From positions 1 through 22,309 of IMG/VR virus record IMGVR_UViG_3300007735_000487: a DNA stretch of 22,309 nucleotides. One strand, written 5' to 3'. Position 1 is the first letter of the stretch. Every line of letters begins with the position of its first letter. Made by a program: the position numbers and the translations under genes. Source of the stretch: a virus. The notes under the pieces were generated by a model. The model worked only from the letters and a program-made list of their open reading frames with translations, was not told where the DNA came from and did not search any database. Positions 2,441 through 16,824 of this stretch are shown here, in pieces.

Positions 2441-3664
2441 ATGGCAACACAAGTCTCCCTTAACTCTGGTGCATTAGCAAGTGCAGGTGCATTGGCTATT
2501 CAAACAAATGGAACTACTGAAGCAGTAAGCATCAGCACTGGTCAAGTTGCAACTCTTGCAAAAGATGCTGTAATTCAAGGAGTAACAGTAGGCCGTGGCG
2601 CAGGTGCTATAGCCACCAACACTGCGGTGGGGTATGCGGCTTTGGCGGCTAATACAAGTGGCGCTTTTAATGCGGCGCTATCGTATAACGCTTTGACCAG
2701 TAACACAACGGGGCAAAGTAATTCAGCAGGTGGGTTAAATTCTTTAGTAAACAACACTACGGGTTCACAAAATACGGCATTTGGTTCGTCTGCTTTTTCA
2801 AGCAACACCACAGCATCTAACAACACTGCTGTGGGGTATCAGGCGGGGTATACAAATAGCACGGGGACAAACAATGTATTTTTAGGCGGTGTCGCGGGAT
2901 ATACCTCAAATGGCTCATCAAATCTTCATGTTGGATACGGCGCTGGTTATTTATCAACAGGAAGCAACAATACATTTGTAGGAGCGTTTGGCACTGGAAG
3001 CACGGCTTGCGGTGGATCAATGACCACAGGCTCAAAGAACACCATTCTTGGTAGTTACTCAGGCAACCAAGGCGGCTTAGACATTCGCACAGCAAGCAAC
3101 TACATCGTGCTGTCTGATGGGGATGGGAATCCACGGGGTATCTTTGATGGTAGCGGTAACTTGCTGGTGGGGGCTACTTCAACGCTTGGCTCAACGGCTG
3201 GTATTCTTGTTGCCAATAGCGGTGCAAATGTGCAAGCTCTTACAACAAATAGCACCTCAAGTAGCGCATATTATATTGGTAGGTTTTATTCGGGTGGCAC
3301 AGAAAAAGGTTATATATATTTTGATGGAACAAATATTTCTTACACAAGTCTTTCAGACTATCGGCTAAAAGATGATGTGCAACCAATGCAAAACGCATTG
3401 GATAAAGTTGCTCAACTTAACCCTGTAACTTACAACTGGAAAGCAAATGGAAAAGCGGGGCAAGGTTTTATTGCTCACGAATTGCAAGCTGTTATTCCTG
3501 ATTGCGTAACAGGCGAAAAAGACGCAGTGGATGCTGATGGCAACCCGCAATACCAAGGCATCGATACATCATTCTTGGTCGCCACACTGACCGCTGCCAT
3601 TCAAGAACAACAAGCCCTCATCACAACCCTCACCGCCCGTATCACTGCACTGGAGTCAGCATGA
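2441..3664 (+). CDS. Tail fibre with YadA-like head repeats and C-terminal S74 intramolecular chaperone
   Basis: The 407-aa protein starts with ATG after AAAGGAAAG. Residues about 57-205 carry YadA/trimeric-adhesin-like repeats (NTAVGYAAL, NTAFGSSAF, NTAVGYQAG, NTILGSYSG), predicting a trimeric beta structure. Residues 303-407 match the S74 (endosialidase C-terminal) chaperone: SLSDYRLKDDV with the Ser305-Asp306 pair and the SDxRxK signature, LNPVTYNWK, GFIAHELQ, then a C-terminal coiled coil (ALITTLTARITAL). In this family the domain folds the trimer and then cuts itself off before the Ser, so about 103 residues should be released. Its stop overlaps the next start (ATGA). It is very likely the second fibre or spike; host receptor unknown. 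Confidence 0.9.
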   Translation: MATQVSLNSGALASAGALAIQTNGTTEAVSISTGQVATLAKDAVIQGVTVGRGAGAIATNTAVGYAALAANTSGAFNAALSYNALTSNTTGQSNSAGGLNSLVNNTTGSQNTAFGSSAFSSNTTASNNTAVGYQAGYTNSTGTNNVFLGGVAGYTSNGSSNLHVGYGAGYLSTGSNNTFVGAFGTGSTACGGSMTTGSKNTILGSYSGNQGGLDIRTASNYIVLSDGDGNPRGIFDGSGNLLVGATSTLGSTAGILVANSGANVQALTTNSTSSSAYYIGRFYSGGTEKGYIYFDGTNISYTSLSDYRLKDDVQPMQNALDKVAQLNPVTYNWKANGKAGQGFIAHELQAVIPDCVTGEKDAVDADGNPQYQGIDTSFLVATLTAAIQEQQALITTLTARITALESA

Positions 3665-11023: not shown

Positions 11024-13327
11024 ATGGCAAAAACTCTTTATATCTATAACCCAGTAAATAACACAGTATCTAAAGATGGAGAAACGAGACCATATTTAGG
11101 CGGTGTTGGTTTTGATGCTCCAACAGTTCAAAGTGGTGGTGGTGGTGTTTTTGGTGCTATTAGCAATGCCGTTACAAATGTATTTCAACCTGTTGAGCAA
11201 GCTGTTAATCAAGCTGCCGTTCAACTAGACAAGGATTTAAGCCTTTCTCAAAATGCGCCATTGATTGCAGCAATTGCATTGAGCATTGCAGCTCCAGGTG
11301 TTGGTTCGGCTATTGGTCAACAAATGATAGCTGCTGGACTGCTTCCAGCGGCAACATCTGCGGCTGTGGCTACGGCAGTCGGAACTGGTATAGCAAATGC
11401 CGCCCTACAAGTTGCACAAGGAAAGTCTCCAGAAGAAGCACTGAAGGCTGGTGTTATTGGTGCGGCTGGTGGTGCTGTTGGTAATTATCTTGTTGGCGAT
11501 CCTGGCACAGTAAATAACTTTGTCGCCAGTACATCAACTAATCTTTTGGCTGGAAAACCTCCTGAAGAAGCTGTTAAGTCTGGAATTATCAGTTCTGGTG
11601 CTGGTCTTGCTGGTGGTACTGTTGCACAAGGAACTGGGTCTGCTGTTGCTGGACAAGTAGCTGCTGGAACTGCTGCTGGTTTGCTTGCTGGTAAAACTGG
11701 TGAACAAGCATTGATTCAGGGTGTTTCCAACATTAAATTTGATTCACTTATTCCAGACTCAGGTGTAACTGTTCCTACTGAACAACAGGCTCTCGCTAGT
11801 CAACAAGACTTGCAGAGTCAGTTGGCTCCTTATGAGTCAACAATTCCAGCAAGCACAACTGCATTTGATACAACACAAGACATTTCAGATACATCTGGGT
11901 TTGATATACCCTCACCAACACCACAAACACCGATTACTGGAAATACTGGAGGAAATATGGCAACCTATGATGACCCAACAGGCGGGGCTGGTCAATATTA
12001 TGGAACAGAAGATGATTTTTACAATCAACTTTACAATTATCAAGGAACTCCAATTGATTATGCAACTGATCCAACAGGCATGATGAATAGTAGTAATACA
12101 CAGTTTTACGATGATCCAACAGGTGGTGCTGGCGGTCTTGGAACAAATCAAAACCCAGCCATGTATGGAAACCTAACTGTTGGGCAACTGCAAAGATTGC
12201 TTAGTGGTACTGCTGGTGGTGCTGGCGCAAGACCTCTAACCACCGCACAAAGAACTGCTCAACAACAGGCATTAGGATCACTTTTAGGTGGCGCTGTTGG
12301 CGGCGTTGGTGGTCTTTTGGCTGGACAAACTGCGGCTAAAGCTGGTGAAGAACAAGCCAGAATGATTTCTGAGGCAACTGGTCGAGGTGTTGCTGGCGCT
12401 CAATTTAGACCCATTGGCACAACGACAAGGTTTGGCACAAGCCAATTCCAAGTTGATCCCACAACTGGTCAATTGACAAGTGCTGGTTATCAGTTAACCC
12501 CAGAACTCAAGGCAATGCAAGATCGAGTCATGGCCTTAACTGGTCAAGGCTTGACTGAGGCAGAGCAAGCGGCTGGTCGTTATGCTCCTTTGACTGCTGG
12601 CGCACAAGGCTTGTTTGGCTTGGGTCAACAGTATCTGGCTCAGTCTCCTCAACAGGTTGCCGCTGACTACATGGCAAGACAGCAAGACTTGTTGGCTCCT
12701 AGCCGTGAGCGTCAATTGGCTCAACTACAAACCCAATTGTTTAACACTGGTCGAGGCGGTCTGTCTGTTGGTGGTACTGGTATGCGCCCAGGTGGTGGTC
12801 AAGGTCTACGGGCGGCATCTCCTGAGATGGAAGCCTACTACAACGCATTGGCTCAACAAGATGCTCAATTGGCTGCTGGCGCACAACAAGCTGGTCAACA
12901 ACAGGTTCAGTTTGGTGCTGGTTTGATGGGTACAGGTGCTAACCTGCTTGGTGCTTATGGTCAGGGCTTGACGGGTGCTTATGCGCCATTCAGCACTGGT
13001 ATTGGTGTTGGTTCCTCACTTGAGCAACTTGGACAACAACCTTTGTCGTTGAGTCAGCAATTGGCTCAATTGGGTTCTACGGCTGGTGCAAGGGCTGGTG
13101 AACTTGGAATCAGAGGAACCACTGCGGCATCTGTTGCTAGACTGCCTTCTATGCAGTACAACCCATTGGCAAGGGCATTGGTTGGTGCTGGTGGAAACAC
13201 TCAGTTTGGCAATGCCTTAGGTCAATTTACTGGTAATGCTCTTCCAGATTTGCTGGGATTATTCAGTGGCGGACTCCCAAACTATGGGACAGAAGATCGT
13301 CAGAATGATGTAAACGCTAATTTCTAA
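11024..13327 (+). CDS. Large internal virion / DNA-ejection protein candidate (767 aa)
   Basis: ATG 11024 follows GGGAGTG. The protein is Gly/Ala/Gln-rich. Residues 78-155 are strongly hydrophobic and helical (IAAIALSIAAPGVGSAIG, AAVATAVGTGIANAAL), fitting a protein that inserts in the host membrane during ejection. Three degenerate repeats occur: GKSPEEALKAGVIGAAGG (133-150), GKPPEEAVKSGIISSGAG (177-194) and GKTGEQALIQGV (223-234). A Pro/Thr linker near 290-310 leads to DPTGGAG repeats at about 317, 350 and 365. The C-terminal half is Gln/Leu-rich helix (QQYLAQSPQQVAADYMARQQ). Position after the nozzle matches P22 ejection genes gp7/gp20/gp16. An internal ATG at 11957 has its own ribosome site. 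Function inferred from context. Confidence 0.7.
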   Translation: MAKTLYIYNPVNNTVSKDGETRPYLGGVGFDAPTVQSGGGGVFGAISNAVTNVFQPVEQAVNQAAVQLDKDLSLSQNAPLIAAIALSIAAPGVGSAIGQQMIAAGLLPAATSAAVATAVGTGIANAALQVAQGKSPEEALKAGVIGAAGGAVGNYLVGDPGTVNNFVASTSTNLLAGKPPEEAVKSGIISSGAGLAGGTVAQGTGSAVAGQVAAGTAAGLLAGKTGEQALIQGVSNIKFDSLIPDSGVTVPTEQQALASQQDLQSQLAPYESTIPASTTAFDTTQDISDTSGFDIPSPTPQTPITGNTGGNMATYDDPTGGAGQYYGTEDDFYNQLYNYQGTPIDYATDPTGMMNSSNTQFYDDPTGGAGGLGTNQNPAMYGNLTVGQLQRLLSGTAGGAGARPLTTAQRTAQQQALGSLLGGAVGGVGGLLAGQTAAKAGEEQARMISEATGRGVAGAQFRPIGTTTRFGTSQFQVDPTTGQLTSAGYQLTPELKAMQDRVMALTGQGLTEAEQAAGRYAPLTAGAQGLFGLGQQYLAQSPQQVAADYMARQQDLLAPSRERQLAQLQTQLFNTGRGGLSVGGTGMRPGGGQGLRAASPEMEAYYNALAQQDAQLAAGAQQAGQQQVQFGAGLMGTGANLLGAYGQGLTGAYAPFSTGIGVGSSLEQLGQQPLSLSQQLAQLGSTAGARAGELGIRGTTAASVARLPSMQYNPLARALVGAGGNTQFGNALGQFTGNALPDLLGLFSGGLPNYGTEDRQNDVNANF

Positions 13328-13336
13328 GGAACAGTC

Positions 13337-14725
13337 ATGGCAACAGATATTGTTGGAAGTTTGTTTGGTATTAGTCCTGAGATGTATCAGGAAGAGCGCA
13401 ATCGTCAGGGGATGAAAGATGCCATTGCCATGGCACAACTTGACCCTATGCAGTATGCAAATGCCGCTATCCAAGCTGGTGCTGGTCGTGCCGCTGGTGG
13501 CTTTGCTGGCTTGATGGGCGTAGAAGACCCTCAGATGCGTTTGTATAGCCAACGCAACGCCTTGGCAAAGCAGATTGACATGAATGATCCTGAGTCCATC
13601 ATGCGTGGCGCACAGATGGCGGCACAGTCTGGCGACACAGCGGCAGCTACTGCCTTGGCTGACTATGCTCGTAAAGCGGCTAGTGAATTGGCATTGGTTC
13701 AACAGCGTACTGCTGAGAAAATGACCAATGAACAGCGTAATGCTTTGGCTTTTGCATCGTCTGTTGGTCGCCCTGGCTCTCCTGAATTCAATAGAGCATA
13801 TCAAGACAAATTGACTGAATTGACAAGCAAGCCAGAATCAACATCTACAGAGATGAGAAATGCCGCTGCTCTTGCTGCGTCTGAGTTTCCTGTTGGATCA
13901 CCTCAATATACTGAAAGATATAGAGAAGAATTAAAGCGACTAACCACAAAAGAGCCAAAAGTTGGGAATGTAAAAGAAGTTGGCGTTGCAATGGGAAGCA
14001 GAGAGCCTGTTTACCTTGATGTAAACAATGACCAACAATACATCTACCAAAAAGGCGCAGATGGCAAGCAGATGCGTGTTCCTTATTTTGGTGGCGTTGA
14101 CAGAACAACGGCAACTACAAAAGTTCAAGTAGATGCTGGAGAAAATGAATTTGTTAAAGAACTTGGAAAACTTGATGCAAAAGTTGTTGCAAATTCAATG
14201 CAAACAAAAGATTCTGCTCTTGCCGCTTTAGGTTCATTAAAGAGATTGAATCAACTTGACCAAAATGCGTTGATTAGCGGTACTTTTGCAAGTGGCAGAG
14301 TAGGAGCAACAAATTTGCTTGATACACTTGGCCTTACAAGTTCTAAAGATAAAGATGTACTTGCAAAATCTGAAAATTACCAAAAGACTGCTGGCGATGT
14401 AATTCTTGCTACTCTTGGTGGAAGACTTGGTTCAGGATTTTCAAATGCAGATCGTGAATTTATCCAAAGTCTTGTTCCTCAACTGGAGAACAGCCCACAA
14501 GCCCGTAAACAACTTATTGAGTTTATGGTTAAAAAGAATCAAGGAATTGTTGAAGAAACAACCAGATTGGAAACCTATGCAAGAGAAAATAAAGGACTTA
14601 AAGGATATGTTCCAACAATTCCAATTGTTAATTTAGGCGCAAATGCTCCAAAGCCTTTGTCAGAATTAAGCAATGAAGAATTGATGAAACAATTTAACGA
14701 ATTGAAAGGCAAGAAAAAACCATGA
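13337..14725 (+). CDS. Internal virion / ejection protein candidate (462 aa)
   Basis: ATG 13337 follows AAGGA. The mostly helical protein begins MATDIVGSLFGISPEMYQEE. It has an Ala/Gln-rich middle (ANAAIQAGAGRAAGGFAGL, GAQMAAQSGDTAAATALADYA) and a repeated motif: FASSVGRPGSPEFNRAYQDKL and ASEFPVGSPQYTERYREEL. A C-terminal domain follows (LGKLDAKVVANSMQTKD, FVKELGK, AGDVILATLGGRLGSGFSNADREF), then a charged tail. Second of three large genes in P22-like ejection-gene order; the number and size suit that role. No lytic or protease motif was found. It is joined to the next gene by ATGA. Confidence 0.7.
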   Translation: MATDIVGSLFGISPEMYQEERNRQGMKDAIAMAQLDPMQYANAAIQAGAGRAAGGFAGLMGVEDPQMRLYSQRNALAKQIDMNDPESIMRGAQMAAQSGDTAAATALADYARKAASELALVQQRTAEKMTNEQRNALAFASSVGRPGSPEFNRAYQDKLTELTSKPESTSTEMRNAAALAASEFPVGSPQYTERYREELKRLTTKEPKVGNVKEVGVAMGSREPVYLDVNNDQQYIYQKGADGKQMRVPYFGGVDRTTATTKVQVDAGENEFVKELGKLDAKVVANSMQTKDSALAALGSLKRLNQLDQNALISGTFASGRVGATNLLDTLGLTSSKDKDVLAKSENYQKTAGDVILATLGGRLGSGFSNADREFIQSLVPQLENSPQARKQLIEFMVKKNQGIVEETTRLETYARENKGLKGYVPTIPIVNLGANAPKPLSELSNEELMKQFNELKGKKKP

Positions 14726-16824
14726 GCAGCCTACAAGATGTTGAAGCAGAAATGCAACGCAGAGGATTGACAACCTCTAGTCAATCTGTTTTTGATCCAG
14801 AAGAAGGTGGAGTCTCTGAGTTTAAAAAGTTTGGCGAGTCTTTACTTAAAGGTTCAGCTAAAGGAATTGTCAGCCTTGTTGGTGGATGGGGAAACCTGTA
14901 TGACTACCTAAAAGGAAGCAAAGACCCAAATGCTTTTTCTAGTGCAGGAATTGCAAATGCTATAAAAAATCTTACTGGCGTTAACATTCAATCAATTCAA
15001 GGTTATCGTGGCGCTTATGAATTTGGAGAGGGTGGCGCTCCTGCTGCGGCATTAACTGCCGTTGGTGTGCCAGGATTGTTTGGCAGAGGAGTTAGAGGAA
15101 CTATTGGAGAGTTTGGAACTGCCGGAACAACTGGAGTTCTTGCACAACAAGTTGCACCAGATAGTCCAACGGCTCAATTGGCCTTGCAAATGTCTCCTTA
15201 TGTTGCCAAAGGTGGGCTTACTGTTGCTGGTCAGCAAATGACAAAGCCAGCAGGTCTTTTCCCGCAAACAGCAGAAACAAGTGAATTAACAAGAGTTGGA
15301 AGACTTACTCCTGGTGAACTTGGTTTAAGCAGAGAGCAATTAGCAACAGAAGCAAGAATTTCTGCTGAACCATCAACAGGAGCATTGCCATCTGAGTTTA
15401 AGAAGGCACAGGCTTATGATGTTGAGTCTTTTTTAACAAACTTGTTTAACAAAGCAAGCGACAAAACACTTAGCCCACCAGATGCTGTTCAAGCAGTTGT
15501 TTCTTCCTTTAACAACTATGGCAAATCGCTTTCTTCAAGATTGAGAAGCGATGCTGCAAAAGACTTTAGTGCCGCAAAAAGTGCTGGTGGATTGATTGAT
15601 ACAACGCCAGTTGTTTCAGTTATTCAATCTAAGTTGGGAGAAATACCAGTAGAAGTAAAAGCACTCGACCCAGTTAGAAATGCTTTGCAAAAAATTATTG
15701 ATGAGTATGCAATTCCAGCAACTCCATCAGTTACAACCCCATCAACAATTCTTGGGCCAACTGGCGCTCCAGCATCGGTAACAGTTACTCCTGCCATTCC
15801 TGCGTCAAATTTAAAAATAAACATTGATCGATTACAGAAAAACTTGTCTGCATGGGGTGAGGCGGCATATTCTGGGAAAGCAGATTTTGGCAAAGGAAAC
15901 ATCTTTGAGGGCGTTGCTCCTGGTCAAGCAAAAGGAATTGCAATATCGGTGTTAAATGGGTTTAAAAATTCCCTTGATGAAGCAATTGATGCTGGAGTTC
16001 CCGGTGCAGATAAACTTGTTGATGCCCGTGATAAGTTTAGGCAAAACATCCAAAAAATTGAGCAGTTTTCTGATAGACCACTGACAAAAGCGTTTGATGT
16101 TCAAAATGTTACCGACTTGGTTCCAGAGGTTGAGCTTGCCAAACTAAAAAAGATGCCTCCATCTCAGCAACAGTTTCTTGTTGAAGTGATGCAAAACAGT
16201 CCTAATTCTCAGGTGAATGAAGTTTTAAACACAATTCGCAGGATGAATTTTGATGATGTTTTGTCTGTTGCACAAGCCAAAGGTGGGGCGATAAATGATC
16301 CAACATTTAATATAAACATTGCACTCAAAGAACTTGACAAAAAAAGCAGTGATTTTGCCAATCTATTTCCAAATGCAAAAGATGCTACTGATGCAAGACT
16401 TGCAATGAACTGGATGCGGAGGACGCTCCAATCTGAATCTGCGGCTGGAGTTCCTGGAATTGCCGCTGGCGAGGCTTATGGCATTACTGGTGCTTTGGGT
16501 GGAAGTGCGAGAACAAGACTCCAAGCAAGGGAAATTATCCCGTTAATTCGGGACATTATTGCAAGCCCAAAGGCATTTGCTGATGTTATCTATAACCCAG
16601 ATTACAGAAAAGCAATGCTTGATTTGTCAAAGCCAAAAACAACTTTGGATAAGGCTATTGGGGCAACTCAAACTCTTGCAAAAGCCTTGGCTATTGGTGG
16701 TGTTCGTGCTGGCCCAATGCTTGAGACTGTTGGCCCAGAAATGCCTTCTGCGGAACAAGAAACAGCGCCTATCCCATCTCTCATGGAATACGAAACTGAA
16801 ATGAAGGCCCGTGGGCTAATGTAA
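14722..16824 (+). CDS. Internal virion / ejection protein candidate (700 aa) with matched terminal motifs
   Basis: Starts at ATG 14722 by ATGA overlap. An amphipathic or hydrophobic Gly-rich N-terminal third (KGIVSLVGGWGNLYDYL, PAAALTAVGVPGLFGRGVRG) is followed by a long helical region with charged coils and a Pro/Thr-rich loop near residues 330-355 (ATPSVTTPSTILGPTG). The same motif occurs at both ends: SLQDVEAEMQRRGL (residues 3-16) and SLMEYETEMKARGL (686-699). It is the last large virion gene before the lysis genes, the place of P22 gp16-like ejection proteins. No transglycosylase or peptidase motif is visible, so the ejection role rests on context. Confidence 0.7.
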   Translation: MSSLQDVEAEMQRRGLTTSSQSVFDPEEGGVSEFKKFGESLLKGSAKGIVSLVGGWGNLYDYLKGSKDPNAFSSAGIANAIKNLTGVNIQSIQGYRGAYEFGEGGAPAAALTAVGVPGLFGRGVRGTIGEFGTAGTTGVLAQQVAPDSPTAQLALQMSPYVAKGGLTVAGQQMTKPAGLFPQTAETSELTRVGRLTPGELGLSREQLATEARISAEPSTGALPSEFKKAQAYDVESFLTNLFNKASDKTLSPPDAVQAVVSSFNNYGKSLSSRLRSDAAKDFSAAKSAGGLIDTTPVVSVIQSKLGEIPVEVKALDPVRNALQKIIDEYAIPATPSVTTPSTILGPTGAPASVTVTPAIPASNLKINIDRLQKNLSAWGEAAYSGKADFGKGNIFEGVAPGQAKGIAISVLNGFKNSLDEAIDAGVPGADKLVDARDKFRQNIQKIEQFSDRPLTKAFDVQNVTDLVPEVELAKLKKMPPSQQQFLVEVMQNSPNSQVNEVLNTIRRMNFDDVLSVAQAKGGAINDPTFNINIALKELDKKSSDFANLFPNAKDATDARLAMNWMRRTLQSESAAGVPGIAAGEAYGITGALGGSARTRLQAREIIPLIRDIIASPKAFADVIYNPDYRKAMLDLSKPKTTLDKAIGATQTLAKALAIGGVRAGPMLETVGPEMPSAEQETAPIPSLMEYETEMKARGLM

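Follow-up and report, generated by a model that had tools for sequence, protein, structure and literature searches.

The 22,309-nucleotide stretch of DNA from an uncultured virus of bacteria analyzed here (the window; IMG/VR record IMGVR_UViG_3300007735_000487) encodes a 700-residue protein, which we term Y (14722..16824), whose two ends carry the same short peptide, and the question is what such a repeated terminal peptide is for. Y is the second member of an ejection-type pair, so called by position, whose proteins are presumed to be carried inside the virus head and injected together with the DNA. Its upstream partner X, a protein of 462 residues (13337..14725), has a gene end that overlaps the Y start by 4 bases; these and all further features given for the two genes lie on the plus strand. 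An earlier note on this DNA had proposed a docking or sorting tag, or a signal that links two Y chains end to end. In our reading, the two peptides of Y are probably one half (A) of a heterotypic docking pair whose other half (B) is the C-terminal tail of X, and one Y could hold two X.

The translation bears out the repeated motif itself. The N-terminal A tag comprises residues 3-16 (SLQDVEAEMQRRGL; 14728..14769) and the C-terminal A tag residues 686-699 (SLMEYETEMKARGL; 16777..16818), within protein ends that read MSSLQDVEAEMQRRGLTTSS and PIPSLMEYETEMKARGLM, respectively. Given the residue composition of Y, the chance of finding the eight fixed motif positions at a single specified site is P = 1.4e-10. 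When the first 32 residues are aligned locally with the last 32, the score is 39, a value reached or exceeded end against end by 27 of the 1441 open reading frames (ORFs) of at least 300 residues in the loci fetched; by eye, 13 of these are relatives of Y or further Y proteins, 11 are presumed scaffolds that repeat a different motif at their two ends, and 3 are odd ORFs. A capped helix opens with an S/T N-cap, followed three residues later by an acid, continues as a short amphipathic stretch, and closes with an R-G-hydrophobic C-cap; both copies in Y have this self-contained make-up. In the model of Y, which is of low confidence (mean predicted local distance difference test score, pLDDT, 44.7), the tags form helices 4-13 and 687-696, and coil separates both from the body, with linkers predicted at residues 17-29 (14770..14808) and 663-685 (16708..16776), the latter with an end that is poorly conserved in the alignment. 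A SAP-type helix domain was considered and rejected, as the second helix after the RGL turn is missing: the N-terminal copy is followed by predicted coil, the C-terminal copy by one residue and the stop. Y has no match in annotated phages, PHROGs, Pfam, or PDB sequences, and the best hit of its sequence profile against PDB sequences (E 0.43) is not significant.

X terminates in PLSELSNEELMKQFNELKGKKKP, a capped helix of the LSNEEL type (B) unlike the RRGL type (A) of Y. The B tag spans residues 441-462 (LSELSNEELMKQFNELKGKKKP; 14657..14722) with a predicted helix at 446-458, and is preceded by a coil linker at residues 419-440 (14591..14656; model of mean pLDDT 74.3). Short helices flanked by coil are predicted for the X tail and, at the low pLDDT of the Y model, for the Y head. 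X matches no PHROG or Pfam family, and its fold matches no solved structure in the PDB significantly (best E 0.35); the 15 matches in BFVD at E <=0.001 are all uncharacterized or unnamed. X and Y are likely ejection proteins by their position, as they are long adjacent genes behind tail genes, as for podophage ejection proteins, and by wall-degrading domains that other phages encode in these genes, namely an SLT transglycosylase domain in the X of locus L138 and endolysin-like domains in the Y of L070 and L344.

The partnership of X and Y was followed across at least 240 viral loci, a junction sample chosen by motifs of the upstream tail protein and not by tag. With X recognized by its N-terminal family, 106 non-redundant X|Y junctions were obtained, of which 77 remained after hand cleaning; the 29 dropped were L376 and 28 T-group rows, mostly tail-to-acetyltransferase junctions, while 11 T-group rows, named after part of the junctions had been inspected, were retained. 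By eye, X C-tails and Y N-heads in these 77 junctions form about ten matched types, with some junctions untypable. For instance, the tail IMSTDGGKTWxPV occurs with the head LPxGFxLE, often in tandem, VDPxxWNVMTPEEKALW with MTxEQQxAIAxAxARLRLQ, NPxTGKVE with GPVEFPDGMSDDDV, and RxxADxIxG with YAxWIVxNxxKKGTPEFxTVAxAY. Among pairs of junctions with dissimilar bodies (n=2194), the mean X-tail score is 32.2 in the 47 pairs with similar Y heads, compared with 15.9 (0/2000 permutations), while the X N-termini, as a control on the same pairs, score 36.7 vs 33.3 (256/2000). When the limit on body similarity is tightened, leaving 1367 pairs of which 28 have similar heads, the tails score 34.9 vs 15.8 (0/2000) and the control reaches 312/2000. 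Control junctions of the same loci, again with dissimilar bodies, yield z values of -2.1 for W|X and 5.0 for Y|Z, compared with 20 for X|Y. Tail class and head class match beyond body similarity. X tails, on the other hand, resemble their own Y heads no more than those of others (mean score 17.17 vs 17.14); thus, the pairing is heterotypic.

In readable junctions, the partner of an A-tagged protein bears an LSDEEL-like tag, either as X-A with a tandem B on Y or as X-B with Y-A, the latter being the arrangement of the window. This count is restricted to loci whose X|Y junction is readable. L072, L120, and L155 are excluded because they nearly duplicate L070 and L143, and L057 because its contig lacks Y; L078 is included although it nearly duplicates L070. 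X-A occurs with tandem Y-B in 8/8 chosen loci (L070 and L078 among them) and 2/2 unselected loci, and tandem B in 0/75 other unselected loci. Conversely, Y-A occurs with X-B in 4/4 chosen and 3/3 unselected loci, and X-B in 1/74 of the other unselected ones. Two assignments required the eye: the X of L194, which the regular expressions scored as both A and B, was read as B, and the A|B junction of L387 was missed by them. In L070, L078, and L344, X bears A and the Y start lacks B, and the tandem B lies inside Y at 185/212, 185/212, and 140/164, respectively, directly behind a domain matching endolysin families in L070 and L344.

The two halves also change sides. The X body of the window is homologous to those of L218 and L387 (E 1.6e-7 and 1.9e-10; for L344 only at E 0.001), yet window X bears B and the X of L218 and L387 bear A (L387 by eye). 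The Y bodies of these three loci belong to different groups without a blastp match, and the 16 A/B loci as a whole fall into 11 Y-body groups with no blastp match between groups, some Y ending at a contig edge. Likewise, by eye, in L284 X carries the LPxGF half and Y the strand half, reversed relative to L304, L348, and L423. Tags thus move between otherwise unrelated proteins.

Two copies per Y are a recurrent design, placed in tandem or one at each end and realized with at least four different peptides. Tandem Y heads above the 99th percentile of internal Y stretches are found in 11/77 junctions, compared with 0/77 for X N-termini. One copy per end occurs in L384 and L407 (A type), L378 and L406 (DVSxIP), L427 (LDxYIxxLE), and L437 (YxPxDYEVV), which amounts to 6/18 of the complete Y sampled from loci in the same X class as the window. 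Across 64 Y including that of the window, the similarity of both ends exceeds the 99th percentile of mismatched ends in 5. We further inspected by eye 13 annotated phages, reached by homology to A-tagged proteins (L138, L143, L218), by the window tail or head protein, or by name. Tandem Y heads are seen in five (GB2A, RHph_Y25, RHph_N3_13, ctkAd229, Mae-Yong1326-1) and a strand-like pair in three (P22, RHph_N65, RHph_I3_18).

Among relatives of Y itself, the N-terminal copy is the more constant element. A scan of viral contigs for Y relatives gave 36 loci, and all loci together hold 41 distinct relatives, with the window counted as L037. Of the 40 with an N-end, 37 match the regular expression and the other three (L384, L407, L433) a looser form; relatives with a conserved N-copy are 51-99% identical to Y. 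At the C-terminus, R-G is kept in 19/34 intact ends (counted by eye), and EEIEAELMKK replaces the copy in L407. The L017 group has E-L in both copies where the window has E-M. The protein alignment, searched against genome contigs, returned 225 stretches with no relative among them, and a typed consensus peptide had no match in the annotated phages.

How far the A helix is characteristic of such pairs was read from scans for the RRGL-type helix. A degenerate pattern matched 114 stretches in viral contigs. A universal C-terminal tag was rejected as their explanation, since 85 matches share the LVDIEAE end of a polymerase-like protein and were dropped; in L043, the only member examined for family matches, this protein corresponds to the N-part of a T4-type DNA polymerase. 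The remainder includes C-ends of proteins of 330-886 residues (such as L138, L143, L057, L070, and L084), and this and later scans found N-ends with two tandem A copies in L093, L169, and L194. The L169 Y has no clear similarity to that of the window, and no blastp match was obtained for L169 and L194. In a cellular genome collection the capped pattern matched 10 stretches, eight of them internal, one at the C-end of an 85-residue protein that we take to be TatA-like, and one on a contig encoding the same protein as phage locus L143. A further viral scan gave 67 stretches, of which 23 belong to one family of 165-170 residues with ParB-like matches; HNH and polymerase proteins are also present among the part of them compared with protein families. 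A-like helices moreover end proteins outside such pairs, for example L191 (HNH endonuclease) and L236. The motif thus also appears in unrelated proteins, which PHROG identifies as DNA polymerase and HNH endonuclease and which in other cases are presumably Fur-like, TatA-like, or SAP-like, and the RRGL helix alone is not diagnostic. These occurrences would suit a capped amphipathic helix of a general kind, starting in S/T-x-x-E and ending in G, whose likeness at both ends arises by chance or by helix rules. We consider this highly improbable, as the N-copy is conserved down to 51% identity and other peptides, too, recur at both ends.

Three further explanations concern what the tags would touch, if anything. 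Encapsidation signals, with each tag binding a third partner such as coat, scaffold, or portal and drawing the ejection proteins into the procapsid, would agree with the presumed scaffolds of the G-set phages, in which a separate motif, DRRxLLxQQFD, stands at either end, so that both-end helices serve in head assembly too; a scaffold-family protein ending in an RRGM helix (L195) and the C-end of the window's scaffold candidate (ALSEEIMKAYAEGRVK), loosely like the X tail, point the same way. Encapsulin and microcompartment cargo peptides, terminal helices on flexible linkers that load a protein into a shell, are the known parallel; their partner is the shell, however, whereas the evidence here points to another internal protein. 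A common third partner predicts neither the co-variation of X tail and Y head nor A and B on opposite partners, and this explanation is unlikely. Quite unlikely, too, is hitchhiking, in which X tail and Y head co-travel by recombination without touching. The two do lie within a few hundred bases, and Y|Z junctions are associated as well, but the X|Y difference (16.9) is about 3.5 times that of Y|Z (4.8), and W|X lacks the association when bodies are dissimilar. Moreover, the halves change sides between X and Y, tandem B is kept 140-185 residues inside Y, following an endolysin-like domain, and some Y have a second matching copy at the far C-end, about 2 kb off. End-to-end linking of Y chains, the other proposal of the earlier note, takes its appeal from two like tags on opposite ends of one chain. 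It is extremely improbable: X tails and Y heads are unlike, A and B are found on opposite partners, and in the many Y where both copies stand in tandem at a single terminus, such linking is impossible.

What stands of the earlier proposals is the docking tag, not as a tag for Y itself but with the other putative ejection protein, X, as the probable partner, as suggested by the co-variation and by A and B on opposite partners; positive support for portal or scaffold in that role did not emerge from these comparisons. In this docking of X to Y, each tag would be suspended on its linker and the B tail of X would dock to the A tags of Y, so that two A tags per Y would hold two X chains. Docking might take place while the internal core is built in the procapsid, as the injected channel forms, or both. 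We infer the physical X-Y contact, the 2:1 ratio, and the time of docking from the sequences. A wider proposal, to which we give somewhat less than an even chance, is that short-tailed phages pair their ejection proteins through a common code of about ten exchangeable, heterotypic docking peptides. Under this proposal, tail and head would recombine as matched plugs, each half could move to the other partner, and the two copies on Y would fix X and Y at 2:1 in the internal core. In titles and abstract openings of the open-access literature, we found no description of such a docking code for ejection proteins. If true, it would make partners easier to predict from sequence, help to explain a gp15:gp16-like ratio in the virion, and provide a source of portable peptide pairs for protein engineering.

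The closest kind of known system, on our best reading, is that of the docking domains of polyketide synthases and nonribosomal peptide synthetases (PKS/NRPS), which the X/Y pair would resemble in its working without being a member. According to a review (PMC9113145), these domains comprise several classes, including helix bundles and a short linear motif with a beta-hairpin domain, and cognate pairs are transferable to other proteins. As described there, a short C-tail of one protein meets an N-terminal element of the next, as proposed here for X and Y. Unlike PKS/NRPS, however, X and Y are putative virion proteins and not enzymes, their halves swap sides, and Y, as the presumed receiver, frequently bears its element twice, either in tandem or once per end. 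Among phages, the genes for T7 gp15-gp16 and P22 gp20-gp16 are adjacent, as are those for X and Y, with T7 in the same gene order. One account of the T7 virion (PMC11784390) gives a gp15 octamer with a gp16 tetramer, which fits two X per Y, and another of the ejected proteins (PMC8954989) has the gp15 C-termini stabilized by gp16; in their available portions, neither mentions a terminal tag code. For P22, about 30 gp20 per 12 gp16 are reported (PMC8402733). The gp20 C-end SGIKFTVE and the gp16 start MKVTANGKTFNFPDGTS of P22 are, by eye, like one of the matched types. Unlike the T7 and P22 proteins, window Y (by sequence profile) and window X (by fold) match no solved structure.

Several observations weigh against the docking of X to Y as read here. 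An initial co-variation test with longer stretches (45 junctions, 504 G-N cross pairs) was weak, with 150/2000 by rank correlation and 71, 49, and 40 of 2000 by thresholds, and the shorter stretches of the main test were picked after it. Over all 2926 pairs, whatever the similarity of their bodies, the X N-terminus control is elevated as well, at 5 to 85 of 2000. Y|Z, of equal adjacency, has a smaller but clear effect (20.7 vs 15.9, 1/2000); as X tail and Y head are neighbors in the DNA, joint inheritance can explain part of the association. The types were named by eye, and the regular expressions for A and B were composed after part of the data had been seen. The three unselected Y-A cases are relatives of window Y, 51-55% identical in the best stretch, and therefore not independent of it. 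Where the earlier note looked to relatives for both motifs, the N-copy is kept in those examined, but the C-copy has decayed to LxEhxxALKAL in 14/34. The overall both-end test is modest, its mean being reached in 117/5000 permutations, and in 5 of the 13 annotated phages (BcepC6B, RHEph01, A-4L, CRP-3, CRP-810) a pair was not seen or could not be placed. No known ejection protein with similarity to X or Y in sequence or fold was found in PHROG, Pfam, or PDB (fold search for X only). Finally, six gp15 and six gp16 are present after ejection in T7 (PMC8954989), in which extra gp16 copies may lie in the virion; with both proteins hexameric, this speaks against a fixed 2:1 ratio.

Further observations concern motifs at the ends of other proteins. 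Terminase small subunits in L166, L168, L170, and L055 (L166 and L055 by PHROG) have an A-like helix near the C-end (EIEDELKKRGLPVPE, EIEAELKRRGAPVPE). The RRGM-ending protein of L195 (3829-4731, minus strand) matches scaffold family phrog_2303 at E 1.5e-7 and has the C-end SMSRAEVTAELKRRGMRGWR. Proteins of about 300-370 residues with their own both-end motif, DRRELLxQQFD near the N-end and DRRSxLxEQFD near the C-end, are present in L307, L305, L269, L312, L078, L070, L339, L340, L266, and L357. That of L070 itself matches no PHROG family and directly precedes a major head protein (phrog_9953), which makes it a scaffold by place.

Two Y proteins are very large, namely one of 2397 residues with a RadC-like domain (L228:499-7689, minus strand) and one of 2441 residues with an LPD1 domain, a domain of large polyvalent proteins (L489:16226-23551). 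The X of L406 differs from window X at only 3 of its first 78 residues, while its C-part and Y type are different, which places a breakpoint inside X. In the window, X is preceded by a 767-residue protein (11024..13327, plus strand) that, by position only, is possibly the first of the internal group. Between the portal and the scaffold candidate, an unusual site for fiber-like genes, lies a 407-residue protein (2441-3664) whose C-end we take to be like an S74 chaperone-peptidase, and which sits behind a collagen-like protein of GxxGxx repeats (1054-2427).

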